From a virus, in IMG/VR virus record IMGVR_UViG_3300030389_001241, positions 1 through 32,491 of that record: 32,491 bases of DNA. One strand, 5' to 3'. The notes below the pieces were generated by a model that saw only the letters and a list, made by a program, of their open reading frames with translations, was not told the origin of the DNA and searched no databases. Position numbers and translations under genes: made by a program. Below, one piece after another: positions 5,793 through 13,833 of the stretch (position 1 is the stretch's first letter; each line of letters starts with the position of its first letter).

Positions 5793-6029
5793 TTACATCA
5801 TAATCCTATACCTTTTCTTGGTAAGTTTCAACTGACGTATCATATTTTCACTTTTTATTTTCTCAAGATATCCTTGTGATATTAAATGAGACACTATATC
5901 AAACGCATGGCTCTTACTTTTTATTCTACACCCAGCACATATCTCTTTATATGTTGGTGATGTTTTATATGCAGAAATAAAATGTTTGATAAAATAATAT
6001 ACATCTCTTTGTCTTGCTTTTATTTTCAT
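5793..6029 (-). CDS. LexA N-terminal-like winged-helix protein
   Basis: This is a 78-residue protein. Residues 5-56 match the LexA DNA-binding domain pattern: ARQRDVYYFIKHFI, then SPTYKEICAGCRIKSKSHAFDIVSHLISQGYLEK, corresponding to RQ-x-x-V-x-x-x-I...SPT-x-x-EIA...S...V-x-x-H-x-x-L-x-x-x-GY. There is no peptidase domain, so it cannot self-cleave like LexA. It is the last gene of the early operon. The start overlaps the previous stop as ATGA, with AAGGAG before it. It probably acts as a small repressor of phage promoters or of host SOS boxes; the target is unknown. Confidence 0.72.
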   Translation of the reverse strand: MKIKARQRDVYYFIKHFISAYKTSPTYKEICAGCRIKSKSHAFDIVSHLISQGYLEKIKSENMIRQLKLTKKRYRIMM

Positions 6030-6187
6030 ACATACTCCTTTAACAATTCTAATATTTTTTGTTGTTTTACAGGGTCAGTAGTTTCAGCAAGTCGAGCATT
6101 AAAATAATTAATCCAATACTTTTTTTTGTCATTCATGTATTCAAGATTTTCTACATACTCTTTATCTTCTTCAAATAAATCTTCCAT
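6026..6187 (-). CDS. Small acidic protein, function unknown
   Basis: This is a 53-residue charged helical protein beginning MEDLFEEDKEYVENLEYM. The start at 6187 is chosen because the ATG forms TGATG with the stop of the 16-residue micro-gene upstream, which indicates translational coupling. A longer reading from 6211 would overlap that micro-gene almost completely. No domain is recognised. It overlaps the LexA-like gene by 4 nt. Confidence 0.6.
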   Translation of the reverse strand: MEDLFEEDKEYVENLEYMNDKKKYWINYFNARLAETTDPVKQQKILELLKEYV

Positions 6188-6237
6188 CACACTACCATCC
6201 CTACTGTCCATAGTATTACCAATATTCCTACTAACAT
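6187..6237 (-). CDS. 16-residue hydrophobic micro-protein
   Basis: The sequence reads MLVGILVILWTVGMVV. The ATG at 6237 has a near-perfect ribosome site, AGGAGGTAAT, placed directly after the ssb stop codon. Its stop shares bases with the next start (TGATG). The peptide is long enough to insert in or lie on a membrane. No relative is recognised. The strong ribosome site and coupled stop-start are the evidence; it could alternatively be only a translational-coupling leader for the 53-residue protein. Confidence 0.5.
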   Translation of the reverse strand: MLVGILVILWTVGMVV

Positions 6238-6245
6238 ATTACCTC

Positions 6246-6638
6246 CTAGAATGGCATGTCATCATCAAATTCATCATCTCTTTTTACATTACCTGTAGCT
6301 TTAGGTGCTGACCTTTCCAATACATGACAAACAGAATTAAATTTATCAAGCACTACACCACCAGCAGTAACCTCTTGTCCATCTTTATTGATATATGTGC
6401 TGTAAACTTGTTTTCCTTCTATGTAAAGCAATGTACCAGCTTTACCCTTTTTATCTAACTCTTTACCAATATAATCATTAAAGCATGTGATGTTGTGCCA
6501 AGTTGTTTCTTCTTTATCTTTAGATTTAATCCATTCATTGGTAGCAATACTAAATCTCCAGTATCTATTACCATTTGAAGAATCTTTAGCTTCTACATCT
6601 CTACCTAATCTTCCTATCAATGTTATTTTGTTATGCAT
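6246..6638 (-). CDS. ssb: Single-stranded DNA-binding protein
   Basis: This 130-residue protein is a bacterial-type SSB with an OB fold: NKITLIGRLGRDVE at the N-terminus, YWRFSIATNEW, then TTWHNITCF and LYIEGKQVYSTYINKDGQE, ending in the acidic tip DDEFDDDMPF that binds partner proteins. The start at ATG 6638 is preferred over GTG 6647 because GAGGTGAAGG is properly spaced before it. It overlaps the preceding gene by 8 nt. It protects single-stranded DNA in replication and recombination, and the conserved host-like acidic tail suggests it can recruit host replication and repair proteins. Confidence 0.93.
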   Translation of the reverse strand: MHNKITLIGRLGRDVEAKDSSNGNRYWRFSIATNEWIKSKDKEETTWHNITCFNDYIGKELDKKGKAGTLLYIEGKQVYSTYINKDGQEVTAGGVVLDKFNSVCHVLERSAPKATGNVKRDDEFDDDMPF

Positions 6639-7071
6639 TACCTTCACCTCTACTTATTAATTGTTCTTCCTTAGATTCTTTCGGTTGTTTGAAATCATCT
6701 GATTCACTATCTGAATAGATATATGCATGTGCATTTAATAATTTCAATACACATCTATCTACTGCACGTTTCTCTGCCATAGCATATGGAAAAGAGTTCT
6801 TGTTGTTTTGTGCTGTACATTCACCAAATGATTCAATGTGATTATCTTTCCATGTAGCACAACATTTGACTACAACATCAGGTGCAAAGTTTTCAATGGT
6901 CAAAGTCCAAGACATCTTTTCCTGCATAGCAATTCTTTCGACTGCATTATGTTTGATAATCATTAACTCTCTACCACCTCTGTTGAGTTCCCAAAAATCA
7001 CTACTAGATAATTTATATTTGTTTTTAAAACTATCAATAAGTTCTTTTGTATAGTTAGTTGTCTTACTCAT
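6631..7071 (-). CDS. Putative single-strand annealing protein
   Basis: This is a 146-residue protein. The N-terminal half is KYKLSSSDFWELNRGGRELMIIKHNAVERIA. The second half holds the motif ESFGECTAQNNKNSFPYAM, followed by AEKRAVDRCVLKLLNAHAY and an acidic tail YSDSESDDF. The fold pattern (beta-hairpin core, then an AEKRAxDR helix) recalls Rad52/ERF-type annealing proteins, but I cannot confirm it from sequence alone. Position is the strongest support: it lies between a YqaJ-type exonuclease and ssb, the usual place of an annealing protein in Red-like systems. The start ATG overlaps the exonuclease stop (ATGAGTAA) with GGAG upstream. Confidence 0.5.
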   Translation of the reverse strand: MSKTTNYTKELIDSFKNKYKLSSSDFWELNRGGRELMIIKHNAVERIAMQEKMSWTLTIENFAPDVVVKCCATWKDNHIESFGECTAQNNKNSFPYAMAEKRAVDRCVLKLLNAHAYIYSDSESDDFKQPKESKEEQLISRGEGNA

Positions 7072-7633
7072 ATAGTCTCCATGAGGTATTATCCTCTGTT
7101 GGTTCTTCGTCTTTATCTACCAGTTCCCAAAACAGTTCCTGTCTTTTCAACAGTTCTATTTGATACTGTAGATTCTTTTTGATGGGTACAAATTCCCATT
7201 TCATGTTTCCAAAAAATACTGATAAGTAACAAGTATCTAACTTGGATAGCAGTAAATAATGTTGGATTTGTGCATAGTATTTAGTCTTAACCTTACGCAT
7301 AGTGTTGAAAGCATTGGTATGTTTACACTCAATAATTTCTTTTTGATGGGGGAGAGTTACACCATCAAAGTGTGCATATCTAAATCCATCTACTATAACA
7401 CCTGGATAAGGTTCAGTTTCAATACCAGTCTGTTTTGTAAACCATGACCTATTAAAATCTTCAGTCAGTACACCCATTTGTACTGGCAAAACATCTGATA
7501 AATCATCTGGTTCTTTGCGTTGTGTTTTCAATAGCCAAAGGTTGTGTATACCACTTAATGATTCTTGCATAAGAATCCCGGAATCTGATCCACCAATACC
7601 CATATGTCTATCTATGTTGACTACACTACTCAT
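7064..7633 (-). CDS. YqaJ-type viral 5'-3' exonuclease
   Basis: This 189-residue protein belongs to the lambda-exonuclease/YqaJ nuclease fold. Visible motifs, in order, are GIGGSD (12-17), GVLTEDFN with E58, HFDG with D90, the E-x-K pair IECK (E102, K104) and YYAQIQHYLLL (119-129) with the conserved glutamines. It resects double-stranded ends and hands single strands to the annealing protein next door. It starts with AGGAGA before the ATG, 1 nt after the previous stop. Length is at the short end of the family, yet all catalytic positions are present. Confidence 0.85.
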   Translation of the reverse strand: MSSVVNIDRHMGIGGSDSGILMQESLSGIHNLWLLKTQRKEPDDLSDVLPVQMGVLTEDFNRSWFTKQTGIETEPYPGVIVDGFRYAHFDGVTLPHQKEIIECKHTNAFNTMRKVKTKYYAQIQHYLLLSKLDTCYLSVFFGNMKWEFVPIKKNLQYQIELLKRQELFWELVDKDEEPTEDNTSWRLYE

Positions 7634-7634
7634 A

Positions 7635-8225
7635 TTAGTCTCCTATTTTATATGATGTTTGTTCTAATTGTAAAGCCCACTCTGCTGAGTTCTCAAGGTT
7701 TCTAATAAAGTCATGACATCTTTTTACCTCATGGTCTAGGTACTCTATAAACTCATTTGGTAATGGCAATCGTGGCCATTTGTAGGTACTACATATATGT
7801 AATGTTGCATAAGGAAATAAAGCTCCAGGATATTTCTTGAGCAATTCCCAATAAGTTTGTAGACCTAGTTCATTGGGTGCAGCACAACTGAATGTTGAAC
7901 ATACAGTCTCAAGCATTATCTGAACATCTGCTAACTTACATGGTTGCATAAGTTCTTTGCAATTAGTAAGAGCAGTAATCAATTCACTTGTCTTTACCTT
8001 TTCTTTCAAGAAACTTACTTGATACATTTGACATATTAAGGAGTCGTTCACGTCTTGCTCGAACATAGGATGCCGATGTTTTATCCATGTTGCTGTTATT
8101 GCTTTCCCTCTCTCGTCTAAACTCGATAGACCTTTGAACCCAGAGTTTGAACATTGATTGCCAGTTGTGGCTGGTTCTACCCCTTGAGATGTAGTAGTTT
8201 GTAAATTTTTCTCTTTCTTCGTCAT
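7635..8225 (-). CDS. Putative replication partner protein (helicase-loader-like?)
   Basis: This is an ORF of 196 codons. From about residue 67 it looks like a compact helical domain: ELGLQTYWELLKKYPGALFP, then YATLHICSTYKWPRLPLPNEFIEYL. The W...L...A-x-x-H...K-x-W-P-x-L-P-x-P-x-E-F-x-x-x-L pattern recalls phage P-like helicase-loader or primosome proteins, where a FP-x-P-x-E helix is common. The similarity is only a pattern. The first 66 codons overlap the HTH/DnaT gene in another frame. ATG 8225 has CAGGAT about 9 nt upstream; the internal ATG 8027 has no ribosome site but would shorten the overlap. Next to an HTH-DnaT protein, a role in replisome recruitment is plausible. Confidence 0.55.
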   Translation of the reverse strand: MTKKEKNLQTTTSQGVEPATTGNQCSNSGFKGLSSLDERGKAITATWIKHRHPMFEQDVNDSLICQMYQVSFLKEKVKTSELITALTNCKELMQPCKLADVQIMLETVCSTFSCAAPNELGLQTYWELLKKYPGALFPYATLHICSTYKWPRLPLPNEFIEYLDHEVKRCHDFIRNLENSAEWALQLEQTSYKIGD

Positions 8226-8496
8226 AGTTTATATCCTGTTGTTGACACCATTCAATGATGGCAGATGTTGCCTCAAAGTCTGGTGGACATTCTGTTTCAT
8301 AATCACGCATAACAAGGTCTATCTCAAGAGCATTGCACCATGCAAATAGATTGGCAGCAGATGGGAACTTCCTGCCACGTTCCCAGTCTCCTACCAAACT
8401 ATCAGCTACACCAATCATCTGAGATACTGTCATCGTATCTACTCTAAACTTTTTTCTCTTGGTGATTAGAGCTTTCACCAATTCTTTATACATCAT
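7984..8496 (-). CDS. Xre-type HTH fused to a DnaT-like domain
   Basis: This is a 170-residue protein. Residues 5-63 form a Xre-like helix-turn-helix (VSQMIGVADSLVGDWERGRKFPSAANLFAW). Residues 73-122 resemble the DnaT/primosomal domain (SAIIEWCQQQDINYDEEREK, FTNYYISRGRTSHNWQSMFK, then LWVQRS), with the F-x-x-Y...R-G...W-x-x-x-F-x-x-W-V signature. A basic tail RARRERLL follows. The start at 8496 forms ATGA with the 24-residue micro-gene upstream; an earlier start would run through that gene. Reading: a phage initiator that binds origin DNA by its HTH and draws in the host replisome by the DnaT-like part. Dual use as a repressor is possible. Confidence 0.62.
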   Translation of the reverse strand: MMYKELVKALITKRKKFRVDTMTVSQMIGVADSLVGDWERGRKFPSAANLFAWCNALEIDLVMRDYETECPPDFEATSAIIEWCQQQDINYDEEREKFTNYYISRGRTSHNWQSMFKLWVQRSIEFRRERESNNSNMDKTSASYVRARRERLLNMSNVSSKFLERKGKDK

Positions 8497-8567
8497 TGTT
8501 GTATCACCACAATCCATATACCAATCAATATGGCAAAGGTTATATACCAACCTATATTATCTTTCAT
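8493..8567 (-). CDS. 24-residue single-span micro-protein
   Basis: The ATG at 8567 lies 1 nt after the stop of the winged-helix gene, with GGAG 8 nt upstream. It encodes 24 residues beginning MKDNIGWY and continuing ITFAILIGIWIVVIQQ, a complete transmembrane helix. Its stop overlaps the next start as ATGA. It is too short for most gene finders. The tight coupling on both sides and the strong hydrophobic helix support expression; function is unknown. Confidence 0.55.
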   Translation of the reverse strand: MKDNIGWYITFAILIGIWIVVIQQ

Positions 8568-8568
8568 A

Positions 8569-8793
8569 TTATTTCTCCAATTTATACACCATATATCTTG
8601 TGCCATCTTTATTTGTTTCCCATATACCATAGATATCATATCCACGATTTCTCATCTTATAAATAATATCTGACAATCTGGTTGCTCTAAACTTTGTTAT
8701 CGCTTCCCAACTAGTTATCTTACCTTTCTTCAATAAATATTTTTTTACTTCTTCATACTTATTTACTTTGCGTATTGGCCCTGTACCTTTCAT
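8569..8793 (-). CDS. Small winged-helix protein, HTH_39-like
   Basis: This is a 74-residue basic protein. Residues 12-60 read YEEVKKYLLKKGKITSWEAI, then TKFRATRLSDIIYKMRNRGYDIYG, the pattern of the phage HTH_39 winged helix (L...G-x-I-T-x-x-E-A-x-x-x-x-x-x-T-R-L-x-x-x-I-x-x-L-R-x-x-G-Y-x-I). It ends in a beta wing, GTRYMVYKLEK. It overlaps the upstream gene as ATGA. Such proteins are abundant in phages and are thought to bind DNA; the targets are not known. Confidence 0.72.
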   Translation of the reverse strand: MKGTGPIRKVNKYEEVKKYLLKKGKITSWEAITKFRATRLSDIIYKMRNRGYDIYGIWETNKDGTRYMVYKLEK

Positions 8794-9074
8794 TTAGCAC
8801 CCTCCTTCCATTCATCATATGTTAATCTTTCTTCTTCTTCTGGTAAGTTTTTTACTTTAACATGACCACTTAATACAGATATTAAGAATGGTTGCTCAAG
8901 TGGATAATCTGGAATATTTACACCATATAAGTTCATATGCCCAGTTCTTCGGTCTTTATATTTAATATCAAGCCATTCTTGCACTTGTTGTCTTGACCTC
9001 AAGGTTACTTTAGGTTGAACATGTAAATATTTTATTGTGTTGTTATCACATATTACATATGTATATCTTGGCAT
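8790..9074 (-). CDS. Early protein, function unknown (94 aa)
   Basis: This is a 94-residue soluble protein beginning MPRYTYVICDNNTIKYLHVQ and ending LTYDEWKEGAK. It has no recognisable domain. The ATG has GAAGGAGGTTATTA just before it, inside the end of the 34-residue micro-gene, whose stop shares a base with the start (TAATG). It overlaps the following winged-helix gene by 4 nt. It is probably co-translated within the early operon and may modify the host. Confidence 0.75.
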   Translation of the reverse strand: MPRYTYVICDNNTIKYLHVQPKVTLRSRQQVQEWLDIKYKDRRTGHMNLYGVNIPDYPLEQPFLISVLSGHVKVKNLPEEEERLTYDEWKEGAK

Positions 9075-9178
9075 TAATAACCTCCTTCGGTTAAAGTGAT
9101 TAATAAAAACTCTACCCCTGCTAACACTAATACCAAAATTATTAGTGTTATCAGGAATAATTTAATCCAGCTAGTCAT
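9074..9178 (-). CDS. 34-residue single-span micro-protein
   Basis: ATG 9178 overlaps the upstream gene by 8 nt (ATGACTAG). The peptide begins MTSWIKLFLITLIILVLVLA, a strong membrane helix, and its short tail contains a second hydrophobic patch, VEFLLITLTEGGY. The stop overlaps the next start as TAATG, and the last codons double as a perfect ribosome site (GAAGGAGG) for the next gene. The ribosome site of this gene itself is weak (GATAGG), so coupling to the upstream gene is likely. Confidence 0.55.
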   Translation of the reverse strand: MTSWIKLFLITLIILVLVLAGVEFLLITLTEGGY

Positions 9179-9380
9179 TGTCGTACCTATCTAAATCAAC
9201 ATATGATTTGATTTGACCAACACGATTACCATTGATGTCAAATAACTTTCGACTTATACATTTTTTTGTGTTGACATGCTGGATTGCATCTTGAACAATT
9301 CTTGTTAGCTCAATATCACTTGATCCTGCAAATGCAGAATTATCTGTACATACTTCTATGTGTATTGTTACTTCACTCAT
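9171..9380 (-). CDS. Early protein, function unknown (69 aa)
   Basis: This is a 69-residue protein beginning MSEVTIHIEVCTDN. The start at 9380 is chosen over the ATG at 9386 because AGAGG is 7 nt from the former and only 1 nt from the latter. A central helix (DIELTRIVQDAIQHVN) is followed by IDL/IKSYVDL strands and an acidic end. It overlaps its neighbours on both sides. No family is recognised. Confidence 0.7.
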   Translation of the reverse strand: MSEVTIHIEVCTDNSAFAGSSDIELTRIVQDAIQHVNTKKCISRKLFDINGNRVGQIKSYVDLDRYDND

Positions 9381-9600
9381 TTTCATACCTCTCTACGTTG
9401 TGTTTTATTTTTTCTATCAACCCACCTAGTTTCTTAGATGCGTGATAGCACTTAGTCATAAGAGCAACATACTCTTTAGGATATTCTGTAACGTTGTTTT
9501 CATCTATATTTTCTAAAAACTTTGCAGCAGTTTCTGTATTGGTGCTGATAAGCTCTACTAACCATACTTGTTCATCTATTGTTAGACATAATTCACTCAT
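9373..9600 (-). CDS. Early protein, function unknown (75 aa)
   Basis: This is a 75-residue mostly helical protein (LTIDEQVWLVELISTNTETA; ALMTKCYHASKKLGGLIEKI). It starts with ATGA overlap to the preceding gene and ends overlapping the next by 8 nt. There is no signal, membrane segment or domain that I recognise. Confidence 0.72.
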   Translation of the reverse strand: MSELCLTIDEQVWLVELISTNTETAAKFLENIDENNVTEYPKEYVALMTKCYHASKKLGGLIEKIKHNVERYENE

Positions 9601-9785
9601 AGTCTTTCTCCTTGACGAATACTCGTCATGTAATTGTGTGCTAATTTCTTAGCTGTGTTGTATACCACATCCAACCATACCTCTTGCCTGATATATGATG
9701 GACACTCAACAGAGTCCAGGCGTTTCTTGATACGCTGAAACGCCTCCTCTTTTCTATTTGCATAACGTCTTTGCCAACTTTCCAT
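9597..9785 (-). CDS. Early protein, function unknown (62 aa)
   Basis: This is a 62-residue basic helical protein beginning MESWQRRYANRKEEAFQRIK. It starts as TAATG with the gene before it and ends as ATGA with the gene after it. Many Arg/Lys residues could mean nucleic-acid or protein binding, but no domain is recognised. Confidence 0.72.
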   Translation of the reverse strand: MESWQRRYANRKEEAFQRIKKRLDSVECPSYIRQEVWLDVVYNTAKKLAHNYMTSIRQGERL

Positions 9786-10138
9786 TACTCTATCCTTTGA
9801 CTTACAGTTACATGTTGATCAATATCACTTTTGTTTGTAAGAAAGTCATCTAACGTCTCAAGTTCTAGCTCTGACATATCCCATACAATAGATACTTCCT
9901 TATCAACATGGTCAATACGAAGTGCCATATGTTTTCTTTCATACTCAGGGAAAGTTTTGATTTGTTCTATAGCGTAGATTACACGATTGATAAACTCTCG
10001 TAACTGTTCTTCTTCAAGAGTTTCTTCTAGTTGCTGGTCATCATTCATTATCTGTTTATATTCAAAATTATCCATCGTTATACTCCTCAAGCTCACTAGC
10101 TTGTCTGGTTTATCTATAATTACTTTTGGTTTACTCAT
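9785..10138 (-). CDS. Early protein, function unknown (117 aa)
   Basis: This is a 117-residue acidic protein. The N-terminus is extended (MSKPKVIIDKPDKLVSL), followed by an acidic helix (DDQQLEETLEEEQLREFINR) and an alpha/beta end (KEVSIVWDMSELELETLDDFL). It is linked by 4-nt and 1-nt overlaps to its neighbours. The acidity would fit a protein that mimics DNA or binds a basic host factor, but nothing specific supports this. Confidence 0.75.
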   Translation of the reverse strand: MSKPKVIIDKPDKLVSLRSITMDNFEYKQIMNDDQQLEETLEEEQLREFINRVIYAIEQIKTFPEYERKHMALRIDHVDKEVSIVWDMSELELETLDDFLTNKSDIDQHVTVSQRIE

Positions 10139-10338
10139 TGGCTACTCTTTTCTATTTCATAATCAGTTATCTTAGTTGCGAGTGCATGGATATAAGCTTT
10201 TCTTTCGTCTTTACCCATACTTTTCCATTCTTCTTTAGCTGGGATGGTAATGCCCATCTCAAGCATAGTGTCTATTGTGTCAGATATATCAACATATCTA
10301 TCACTCCAGGCTTCTCTTATATCATTCAATGCTCCCAT
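10135..10338 (-). CDS. Early protein, function unknown (67 aa)
   Basis: This is a 67-residue helical protein (MGALNDIREAWSDRYVDISD; WKSMGKDERKAYIHALATKI). It starts 2 nt after the DUF2958-like gene, with AAAGGGAGGTAGTC before the ATG, a very strong ribosome site. It overlaps the next gene by 4 nt. No family is recognised. Confidence 0.73.
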   Translation of the reverse strand: MGALNDIREAWSDRYVDISDTIDTMLEMGITIPAKEEWKSMGKDERKAYIHALATKITDYEIEKSSQ

Positions 10339-10340
10339 GA

Positions 10341-10652
10341 CTACCTCCCTTTTTGTTGTATCATTACTTCTTCAAATGTATCTGGCCCTGAATAATACAT
10401 ATCTCTTTCAATACCATTTTGTTTGAGTTCATTTATATGAAAATAACCATACTCAGGTTCAAAGATATCTGCGATACCAAACATAATACCTTCTTCATCC
10501 ATGCTGTATGCCCACCAATCACCAGCACCTATTGGATTAAAATACTTAACCACAACAGGTTCTTTGCCAATACTTTCTGTAGCAAAATCTGTGTTCTTGT
10601 GGTTGTAACGTAATAATTTTTCTATATCTTTTGTAATAAAACTATATGACAT
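10341..10652 (-). CDS. DUF2958-like protein
   Basis: This is a 103-residue protein. PVVVKYFNPIGAGDWWAYSM, then EGIMFGIADIFEPEYGYFHI and NELKQNGIERDMYY match the layout I know for DUF2958 (V-K-F-F-x-P...W-x-x-x-E-x-D...F-G...E-P-E-x-G-Y-F-x-x-x-E-L...ERD-x-x-F). These proteins are found in phages and plasmids, often with replication or antirestriction genes, and have no firmly known activity. The ATG has AGAGGTG upstream. It follows a 20-residue hydrophobic micro-gene. Confidence 0.78.
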   Translation of the reverse strand: MSYSFITKDIEKLLRYNHKNTDFATESIGKEPVVVKYFNPIGAGDWWAYSMDEEGIMFGIADIFEPEYGYFHINELKQNGIERDMYYSGPDTFEEVMIQQKGR

Positions 10653-10668
10653 GACTACACCTCTTTAG

Positions 10669-10731
10669 TTAGGCCCTAACACATACTACTAAGAGTATGA
10701 TTAGGGCAGTTAATAATAATAGTTGATCCAT
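10669..10731 (-). CDS. 20-residue hydrophobic micro-protein
   Basis: The ATG at 10731 with AAGGTGG 5 nt upstream opens a 20-residue frame, MDQLLLLTALIILLVVCVRA, which is almost all membrane helix. It lies between another micro-gene and the DUF2958-like gene. Its coding DNA also forms a long hairpin (10673-10707), so the segment may serve as a regulated leader as well as code for a peptide. Confidence 0.5.
   Translation of the reverse strand: MDQLLLLTALIILLVVCVRA
10673..10707 (-). promoter_or_regulatory. Hairpin in the leader of the tightly packed leftward genes
   Basis: On the minus strand GCCCTAA...TTAGGGC (7 bp) and an inner CATACT...AGTATG (6 bp) are separated by a small internal loop and closed by a 6-nt loop. 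The fold lies inside the 20-residue micro-gene, about 20 nt before the DUF2958-like start. There is no U-tract, so it is not a simple terminator. It could control translation of the operon or be an RNase III-type processing site. Confidence 0.6.
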
Positions 10732-10741
10732 ACCATCCACC

Positions 10742-10813
10742 TTAGTGAAGTGCCTGGACTATAGCGGGAATTACCACAAAATAATGTGCTGTTAATAATA
10801 TACCTAATACCAT
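10742..10813 (-). CDS. 23-residue hydrophobic micro-protein
   Basis: The ATG at 10813 has CGGAG 8 nt upstream and opens 23 codons starting MVLGILLTAHYFVVIPAIVQ. An in-frame ATG at 10849 would add 12 residues (MLFLLITTRRNI) but has no ribosome site. Its stop lies just before the AAGGTGG of the next micro-gene. The hydrophobic stretch could span a membrane, though it contains H, Y and P. Function is unknown. Confidence 0.45.
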   Translation of the reverse strand: MVLGILLTAHYFVVIPAIVQALH

Positions 10814-10938
10814 AATGTTTCTCCGAGTTGTGATTAATAAAAATAACATGGCTTTGAATTGGAATAGACTTAGCTAACCTTCCACCATAACCTATTACTG
10901 CATTCATCTTTATCGATTACTAGCTCAACAGGATGACC

Positions 10939-11157
10939 TTAAACGAGGTTTTTATTGGTTAGTACCATGTTACAATCAAAAAGTCTTGATGCTATCCTTT
11001 CCTGTACTTTCAAGTTCCCACACCAAGACCAAGACCTCACTCTGGCAGACATAACCGACATGCATAGAGCTACAAAGTAGGCATTACATTCGGACATCGT
11101 ACACCCCAGATTTATGAGGGCGATACAGACTATCGCTAGTGATTGTGATATCAACAA
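10939..11157 (-). CDS. Possible small protein in the early leader (weak)
   Basis: This is an open frame of up to 72 codons. From a TTG at 11157 it would begin with a signal-like hydrophobic stretch, LISQSLAIVCIALINLGC, in which NLGC is only a partial lipobox. From an ATG at 11097 (GGGGTG upstream) it would encode 52 residues starting MSECNAYFVALCMSVMSARV. Codon use and composition differ from the surrounding genes, and the frame lies over structured sequence. I do not recognise it and rate it as uncertain. Confidence 0.25.
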   Translation of the reverse strand: MLISQSLAIVCIALINLGCTMSECNAYFVALCMSVMSARVRSWSWCGNLKVQERIASRLFDCNMVLTNKNLV

Positions 11158-11203
11158 TGCTATGACCTAGTCTGTATCTATACCTAGTGGGATTCAAACC
11201 CAC
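11120..11203 (-). other. Structured sequence, possible RNA element
   Basis: Three dyads lie close together. GTGGG-TTTGAAT-CCCAC (minus strand, 11203-11187) looks like a tRNA T-arm. GATACAGACTA at 11122-11132 is exactly complementary to TAGTCTGTATC at 11168-11178 (11 bp). GCGATA-CAGAC-TATCGC at 11120-11136 is a hairpin that competes with the 11-bp stem. Mutually exclusive folds are typical of regulatory leaders. I could not build a full tRNA cloverleaf around the T-arm-like hairpin. The surroundings (10814-11398) hold no confident gene. Confidence 0.4.
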
Positions 11204-11287
11204 GCTTGGTAATTCATGCTTTTTGTTTTGCGACTTGGTTCAAGGTTGTATACCATATTACCTAGAGTACCTTGACCAATGGTTCGT

Positions 11288-11347
11288 TTAACGCATGGTG
11301 AAAGCTAACACCACCAGAAGTTCTAGGAGTAGGCAATGAAAGACCAT
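11288..11347 (-). CDS. Possible 19-residue hydrophobic micro-protein (weak)
   Basis: An ATG at 11347 opens 19 codons, MVFHCLLLELLVVLAFTMR. The peptide is hydrophobic like the other micro-proteins of this operon, but the ribosome site is poor (only AGAAG about 10 nt upstream) and it is not coupled to a neighbour. It may be a chance frame in this leader region. Confidence 0.25.
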   Translation of the reverse strand: MVFHCLLLELLVVLAFTMR

Positions 11348-11357
11348 TTACTAAACT

Positions 11358-11391
11358 TCTGTTCTGTAAACTATACCATATCTGTTCTGTA
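11358..11391. repeat. Two direct repeats, possible operator half-sites
   Basis: TCTGTTCTGTA occurs at 11358-11368 and again at 11381-11391, 23 nt apart centre to centre, about two turns of B-DNA. They lie just downstream of the 31-residue micro-gene on the leftward transcript. The spacing suits a protein binding twice on one face of the helix, for example one of the small HTH proteins of the phage. Confidence 0.45.
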
Positions 11392-11398
11392 TCTCAAG

Positions 11399-11494
11399 CT
11401 ATAAAATAAAGTTTTCGATAATAAATACTGCACATAATATTACAAGAATTATTAGTATCCCCTGTGCATATATTTCAAGTGCGTGTAACATCAT
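11399..11494 (-). CDS. 31-residue single-span micro-protein
   Basis: The ATG at 11494 has GGAGA 5 nt upstream. The 31 residues begin MMLHALEIYAQG, continue as a strong membrane helix ILIILVILCAVFII and end ENFIL. It stands between the 155-residue gene and the structured leader region. Good ribosome site plus a clean transmembrane helix support it; no relative is recognised. Confidence 0.5.
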   Translation of the reverse strand: MMLHALEIYAQGILIILVILCAVFIIENFIL

Positions 11495-11595: not shown

Positions 11596-12063
11596 TTAGC
11601 TAAGTTTAGCTGGTTGTTTTGTAGTAACAGGTCTCTTTGATTTTACTGGAGTTGTTACCTTGTACATGAAACTCATATCTGGATTCATGTTGATTTTCTC
11701 AGGATTTTCATATCCTAACTCAGCATAAACTTCAGGAACTAAATCAATTCTTTGTTGGTGTTCACTTTGAGTTAACTTGAAGTTTTCAAGCACCTGATTT
11801 TCTTCTTCAATGTCGTGATTGGAATCAATCTCGACTTGTGGCATATCTGCAAAAGATTCAAATCCTTTTGCTTGTGCCATTTCATTAAGCTTTATTAACT
11901 TACGTTCTATCTGAATCTGACATCTATGCCATTTGACTAGATACATGCGAACCAAATCGTTTGCAGTTTCACGATGTGGCTCGTAAGTACTTCTGTCATC
12001 AGCCTTTTCAGGTTGTTTCATAAGTGTTGTAATTGCTTTCTTGAATGTTATATCTTTACTCAT
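11596..12063 (-). CDS. First gene of the leftward transcript, function unknown
   Basis: This is a 155-residue soluble protein beginning MSKDITFKKAITTLMKQPEK. The centre is a long helix rich in charged residues (DLVRMYLVKWHRCQIQIERK, then LIKLNEMAQAKGF), and the end is polar with KSKRPVTTKQPAKLS. Its start (AGGAGACTATT before the ATG) lies inside one arm of the large inverted duplication at 12048-12266, and a degenerate copy of its first codons is present in the other arm. Being the gene nearest the control region, it is likely transcribed first and early. No domain is recognised. Confidence 0.75.
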   Translation of the reverse strand: MSKDITFKKAITTLMKQPEKADDRSTYEPHRETANDLVRMYLVKWHRCQIQIERKLIKLNEMAQAKGFESFADMPQVEIDSNHDIEEENQVLENFKLTQSEHQQRIDLVPEVYAELGYENPEKINMNPDMSFMYKVTTPVKSKRPVTTKQPAKLS

Positions 12064-13489: not shown

Positions 13490-13833
13490 TGGCATTACCA
13501 TTACTAGCAGCAGCGAAAGTTGCATCTATACTAGGACCAACAGCATTAAAAGCTGCCAAGTTAGCTTATAAGCTGTACAAGAAAAGAGGTGGTAAGAAAA
13601 GTGAAAAGAAATTTTTATCTGATAAAGCTAACAAAGTAAAAAGGAATAAGGAAGAAATAAAAAAAGGTGAAGAAGCTCTTGATAGAGCAGACGATAAGTT
13701 TAAAATGGACGATGGAACTTTTGGTGCTTTTGATCCAGTTGTAAAAAAAACTAGATTAATGAAAAAAACAGATGATATAGCAATATATAATAGAATGGCA
13801 AAACGATACAACAGAGGAAAATTAGGAAAATGA
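13486..13833 (+). CDS. Basic protein with N-terminal hydrophobic helix
   Basis: This is a 115-residue protein. The first 30 residues are Ala/Leu-rich (MMALPLLAAAKVASILGPTA, then LKAAKLAYKLYKKRGG) and could form an amphipathic membrane-active helix. A charged helical centre (KRNKEEIKKGEEALDRADDK) and a C-terminal FGAFDPVVKKTRLMKK part follow. ATG 13486 and 13489 are both possible; GGAGAGC favours 13486 or coupling. It belongs to the block of small basic proteins ahead of terL. No family is recognised. Confidence 0.7.
   Translation: MMALPLLAAAKVASILGPTALKAAKLAYKLYKKRGGKKSEKKFLSDKANKVKRNKEEIKKGEEALDRADDKFKMDDGTFGAFDPVVKKTRLMKKTDDIAIYNRMAKRYNRGKLGK

Follow-up and report, generated by a model that had tools for sequence, protein, structure and literature searches.

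Can reading frames of a few dozen codons or fewer in the early operon of a phage be genuine genes, and what might their products do? The question is raised by the 32.5-kb IMG/VR virus record IMGVR_UViG_3300030389_001241, of which positions 1 to 32,491, here called the window, were analyzed. Its plus strand carries head, packaging, and tail genes, and its minus strand carries an early block (from about position 12063 to 5793) with genes for a single-strand DNA-binding protein (SSB), a YqaJ/RecE-like exonuclease, a LexA-type winged-helix protein, and an HTH/DnaT-like protein. Among isolates, Pelagibacter phage EXVC031P Hodr (OQ414635) is nearest, with a major capsid protein 78.5% identical and an exonuclease 44% identical to those of the window, so that this marine phage likely has a SAR11 host. 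A megablast nucleotide search of the early region against a phage collection gave no match, and tRNA and Rfam searches returned nothing significant. A preliminary description of this DNA had proposed a set of single-helix membrane microproteins, unrelated in sequence, alike in form, and confined to the early operon.

Six of the proposed frames, here named tm1 to tm6, were borne out on the early (minus) strand, each with an ATG start, a ribosome site, and one hydrophobic helix. The shortest, tm1 (6187 to 6237; 16 amino acids; MLVGILVILWTVGMVV), has the ribosome site AGGAGGT and lies between ssb (6246 to 6638, minus strand), located upstream, and the next gene. In order of increasing coordinate, the others are tm2 (8493 to 8567; 24 amino acids; MKDNIGWYITFAILIGIWIVVIQQ; ribosome site GGAG), tm3 (9074 to 9178; 34 amino acids; MTSWIKLFLITLIILVLVLAGVEFLLITLTEGGY; weak ribosome site AGGT), tm4 (10669 to 10731; 20 amino acids; MDQLLLLTALIILLVVCVRA; TAAGG), tm5 (10742 to 10813; 23 amino acids; MVLGILLTAHYFVVIPAIVQALH; GGAG), and tm6 (11399 to 11494; 31 amino acids; MMLHALEIYAQGILIILVILCAVFIIENFIL; GGAG). 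The stop-start overlaps described earlier are real as well: the tm1 stop overlaps a small gene at 6026 to 6184 (minus strand; here named g6026) by TGATG, tm2 overlaps the HTH/DnaT-like gene at 7984 to 8496 (minus strand) by ATGA, and tm3 overlaps the frame at 8790 to 9074 by TAATG. No tight overlap with the next gene was found for tm4, tm5, or tm6. The product of the gene coupled to tm2 is a probable replication protein with an N-terminal HTH and a DnaT-like domain (Pfam HTH_3, E value of 1.8e-4, and DnaT, 2.6e-5, both slightly under the curated cut-offs), and it matches PHROG replication initiation profiles at about 4e-4. This gene and the one after it share 242 bases, read in different frames (7984 to 8225, minus strand), an arrangement that is kept in relatives.

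The explanation that these are chance open frames in AT-rich DNA draws on the GC content of the window (35%). A detector requiring an ATG, at least four Shine-Dalgarno bases, 14 to 45 codons, and a 15-residue stretch with a mean hydropathy of at least 2 returned exactly tm1 to tm6 on the early strand, one frame in the late block of 20 kb, and none on the opposite strand. Shuffling of the DNA, a check suggested in the preliminary description, gave a mean of 0.125 such frames over 200 dinucleotide shuffles, against the six observed; no shuffle yielded more than 2, and none (0/200) reached six. AT-richness does not explain the frames; as an account of the whole set we give chance almost no credence, and their conservation in relatives, described below, speaks against it too. 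With a stricter filter dropping frames that overlap longer open reading frames, the window retained 5 frames and nine isolates 0 to 1, a rough comparison by a single filter that is too strict, as it also loses tm2.

Chance does hold for a seventh frame at 11288 to 11347, which had been called weak from the outset and is rejected here as a gene: its ribosome site is weak, the close relative L002 has TAG in place of its start codon, and it is located within a conserved noncoding stretch. Stops or frameshifts in relatives, named in the preliminary description as the sign of a spurious frame, were found for this frame only and not for the six others.

Two further elements were noticed in this part of the early block. 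An RNA hairpin at 11181 to 11211 (minus strand; UACY-GAGC-GURGG-UUUGAAU-CCYAC-UA-RGUA), with a loop resembling the tRNA T-loop, is kept at about 86 to 93% identity in some 25 relatives while its flanks diverge, and it is present twice in some of them (L021, L026, and L041). In the alignment, 99.2% of cells are paired, two pairs have changed on both sides, and the covariation score was reached by 0 of 500 shuffles; ARAGORN and Rfam returned nothing for it. It may act in the early transcript as a regulatory RNA element. Upstream of the hairpin, (T/A)AGAACAG boxes spaced about 20 bases apart occur at 11300 to 11400 (minus strand) of the window and in many relatives; they may represent an operator or a promoter element.

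Relatives (loci numbered L0xx) were taken from IMG/VR, and homologues were sought by searching every frame of the fetched contigs with profiles, the tm6 set being enlarged by direct reading. Because the relatives are mostly metagenomic fragments, several of them near-identical, contig counts overstate the independent evidence, and distinct DNA variants are therefore reported beside them. Each family has intact homologues in place in 3 to 36 contigs. The largest is tm2 (36 contigs, 18 distinct variants; NIG and W18 invariant), followed by tm4 (26 contigs, 16 variants; Q3 invariant), tm5 (16 contigs, 12 variants; G4, Y11, F12, P16, and A17 invariant), tm1 (10 contigs, 7 variants; G4, W10, V12, G13, and M14 invariant), and tm3 (5 contigs, 4 variants). 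For tm6, profile searches gave 3 contigs and direct reading extended these to 6 contigs with 4 DNA variants, the frame and Shine-Dalgarno sequence being intact in L002/L039, L040, L041, L042, and L045. Homologues of the six families contain no internal stops, and the alternative frames of the same DNA mostly do, the exceptions being frame +2 of tm1, tm4, and tm5. Hodr yielded no member of any of the six families. The tm2 pattern matched one Anabaena contig in a cellular genome collection, probably by chance.

A further membrane gene of 34 to 43 residues, here named tm3b, ends in GYE or ARILL and was found in 27 contigs (for example, L044, 4465 to 4596, minus strand of the locus). It occupies a slot comparable to that of tm3 and is frequent in relatives without tm3.

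Selection on the amino acids was assessed by parsimony counts of changes on a tree compared with simulated random mutations; codon likelihood with IQ-TREE (GY+F3X4) was dropped, as codon frequencies become degenerate on such short alignments. Over all loci, omega was 0.27 to 0.57 for tm1 to tm5, with P values of ≤0.004 except for tm1 (0.043). Some loci had been fetched by degenerate peptide patterns of tm1, tm2, and tm5, which favors conserved copies, and the estimates were repeated on an unbiased set fetched through neighboring genes only. In this set, omega was 0.49 for tm2 (P < 0.001), 0.39 for tm3 (P = 0.0015), 0.53 for tm4 (P = 0.001 to 0.008 across both locus sets), and 0.22 for tm5 (0.2 to 0.3 overall; P < 0.001); tm1 was borderline (omega 0.46, P = 0.065), and tm3b did not deviate significantly (0.86). 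The case for tm6, with too few changes for an estimate, rests on the keeping of its frame. The comparison of synonymous and nonsynonymous change proposed beforehand thus points to purifying selection in tm2 to tm5, and together with the homologues and their intact frames it supports the earlier view of unrelated single-helix microproteins restricted to the early operon. Chance is already refuted for tm1 to tm5 as a set.

A null model preserving hydropathy gave nearly the same result for tm1 to tm5, and the constraint therefore exceeds plain hydrophobicity. Several invariant residues also go beyond it, namely, NIG and W18 in tm2, the G, YF, and PA of tm5, W10 and G13 in tm1, and Q3 in tm4. A test for a conserved helix face was significant in tm4 only (P = 0.026, six families tested), and we do not rely on it. 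Since hydrophobic NTN codons allow cheap amino acid drift, omega is no proof of a binding function.

Such constraint bears on the proposal that the frames are translation-coupling leaders, in which the act of translation feeds ribosomes to the next gene and the peptide is a by-product. The overlaps after tm1 (TGATG) and tm2 (ATGA) are conserved, and the gene after tm2 has a weak or missing ribosome site in L054, L038, L044, and L060, as this proposal would have it. A leader or attenuator, however, would have a free amino acid sequence and a dependent downstream gene; what we found is purifying selection, invariant residues, and deletions with an intact downstream gene. In L015 and L016, which lack tm2, its usual ribosome site now precedes the DnaT-like gene, and in L012, L013, L020, and L021, which lack tm1, the AGGAG at the ssb stop that usually belongs to tm1 serves the LexA-type winged-helix DNA-binding gene (5793 to 6029, minus strand; here named g5793). 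The next gene thus inherits the ribosome site once the frame is lost, and a leader is not needed. With tm4, tm5, and tm6 not overlapping their next genes tightly, a leader function is a highly improbable explanation. These natural deletions, which leave the operon intact, indicate that tm1 and tm2 are optional, and they argue against an essential structural role as well as against leader peptides.

At the junction of ssb and g5793, a 14-base remnant of the tm1 3' end was observed in L017 and L026, of which L017 keeps the last bases of tm1 only (GTAGGGATGGTAGT); it is probably a decayed copy.

The neighbors of the frames also have to be weighed against a role inside the phage replication machinery. 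The phi29 protein p16.7 holds the phage replication complex at the membrane, and tm2 and tm1, made together with DNA-handling neighbors, could tether such a complex in a similar way. In all 36 of 36 loci, tm2 leads into the HTH/DnaT-like gene with an ATGA overlap, and tm1 sits in every case with ssb on one side and g5793 or g6026 on the other, the LexA-type DNA-binding gene g5793 following it directly in most relatives; both arrangements speak for such a role, and that of tm2 would fit a phage partner. Of the rivals to the reading preferred below, the strongest is that tm2 anchors phage replication proteins. This rival is nevertheless unlikely in our judgment, as L015 and L016 keep the HTH/DnaT-like gene without tm2, ssb and g5793 persist in many relatives that have no tm1, and the downstream neighbors of tm4 and tm5 vary among relatives. 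In L029 and L030, tm5 directly follows g11596, the place that tm6 occupies in the window. That different families have different neighbors fits separate roles.

Small holin-like peptides reduce the membrane potential or contribute to lysis, and the size and hydrophobicity of the present peptides, including a tm1 without any charged residue, would suit pore formation or membrane disturbance of this kind. Their position in the early operon and the existence of six unrelated members do not. Searches of Pfam, PHROG, and NCBIfam gave no match above cut-off for tm2 to tm6 or tm3b, tm1 being too short for the tool; no holin family was matched, and the frames lie on the early strand rather than in a late lysis cassette. 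The best known-family match, of tm3b to DUF5326, scored under its curated cut-off. By these searches the families appear new to the three collections, and the lack of matches suggests that they are not a known structural or lysis part. We consider membrane disruption quite improbable, although the case against a lysis role is less firm because no lysis genes of this phage were identified.

Our preferred explanation, held with moderate confidence, is that tm1 to tm6 are six real genes for accessory early one-helix peptides of the inner membrane that bind host membrane proteins. Judging from sequence and position, the frames would be translated, and early in infection each peptide would insert into the inner membrane of the host. 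The frames would act as accessory cassettes, each with its own ribosome site, some passing ribosomes on to the next gene through a stop-start overlap and at least tm1 and tm2 being gained or lost without disturbing their neighbors. As for targets, our guess is that each peptide binds one host membrane protein, such as a transporter, a respiratory or secretion subunit, or a DNA-entry route, whose altered activity might result in superinfection exclusion, counter-defense, or a productive cell. The roles suggested in the preliminary description (disturbance of the host membrane, a block to superinfection, or tuning of host membrane enzymes) are all plausible, and the present evidence favors none of them over the others. 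More tentatively, and with some doubt, the set might be a modular early toolkit of six separate peptides, down to 16 residues, each bound to a different protein of the host inner membrane; marine phages would swap their genes as minimal cassettes that fit between a ribosome site and the start codon after it.

Most gene finders apply size limits that exclude genes of 16 to 34 codons, and in Hodr, the nearest isolate, matching frames are unannotated. If genes of this size are a general feature of marine phages, then one layer of membrane-level host control has gone unnoticed. The families are conserved enough for one-by-one testing, for which the natural deletions offer ready comparisons, and tm1, whose 16 codons are kept in ten contigs, is near the lower limit for a membrane-spanning gene.

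A large global catalogue of predicted phage small genes, by Fremin et al. in 2022 (PMC9254267), is cited in PMC11188072 and PMC11364881. The early one-helix class seems little studied, since the word transmembrane is absent from a 2024 review of phage small proteins (PMC11323111). The preliminary description knew of no system with so many such genes; T7 and Lactococcus phage c2, each with several tiny hydrophobic genes, call for a milder form of that claim. The window frames fit this T7/c2 type in having at most about 50 codons, one hydrophobic helix, a ribosome site, and an early-operon position, with SSB, YqaJ/RecE-like exonuclease, and DnaT-like genes as same-strand neighbors. In T7, genes 0.5, 1.4, 1.5, and 6.3 (and 19.5), mostly in the early or middle region and annotated as hypothetical or DUF, encode several tiny proteins with hydrophobic stretches similar in strength; they have 29 to 51 amino acids compared with 16 to 34 in the window, whose set is larger by one, and no sequence relation to the tm families was detected. 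In c2, the early strand encodes the one-helix microproteins e1, e3, e10, and e14 next to SSB and Erf genes, and e10, with 22 amino acids, shares a 4-base overlap with the next gene, as in the tm set; c2, however, belongs to a different host phylum and shows no detected relation, and its four genes, against six, are longer on average. Closer by, the early region of Hodr contains an unannotated 23-codon one-helix frame (13493 to 13564; AAGGAGGT) with a 4-base overlap with the preceding gene. Set against these cases, the tm genes are shorter and there are more of them, and they come with evidence of selection and of cassette exchange.
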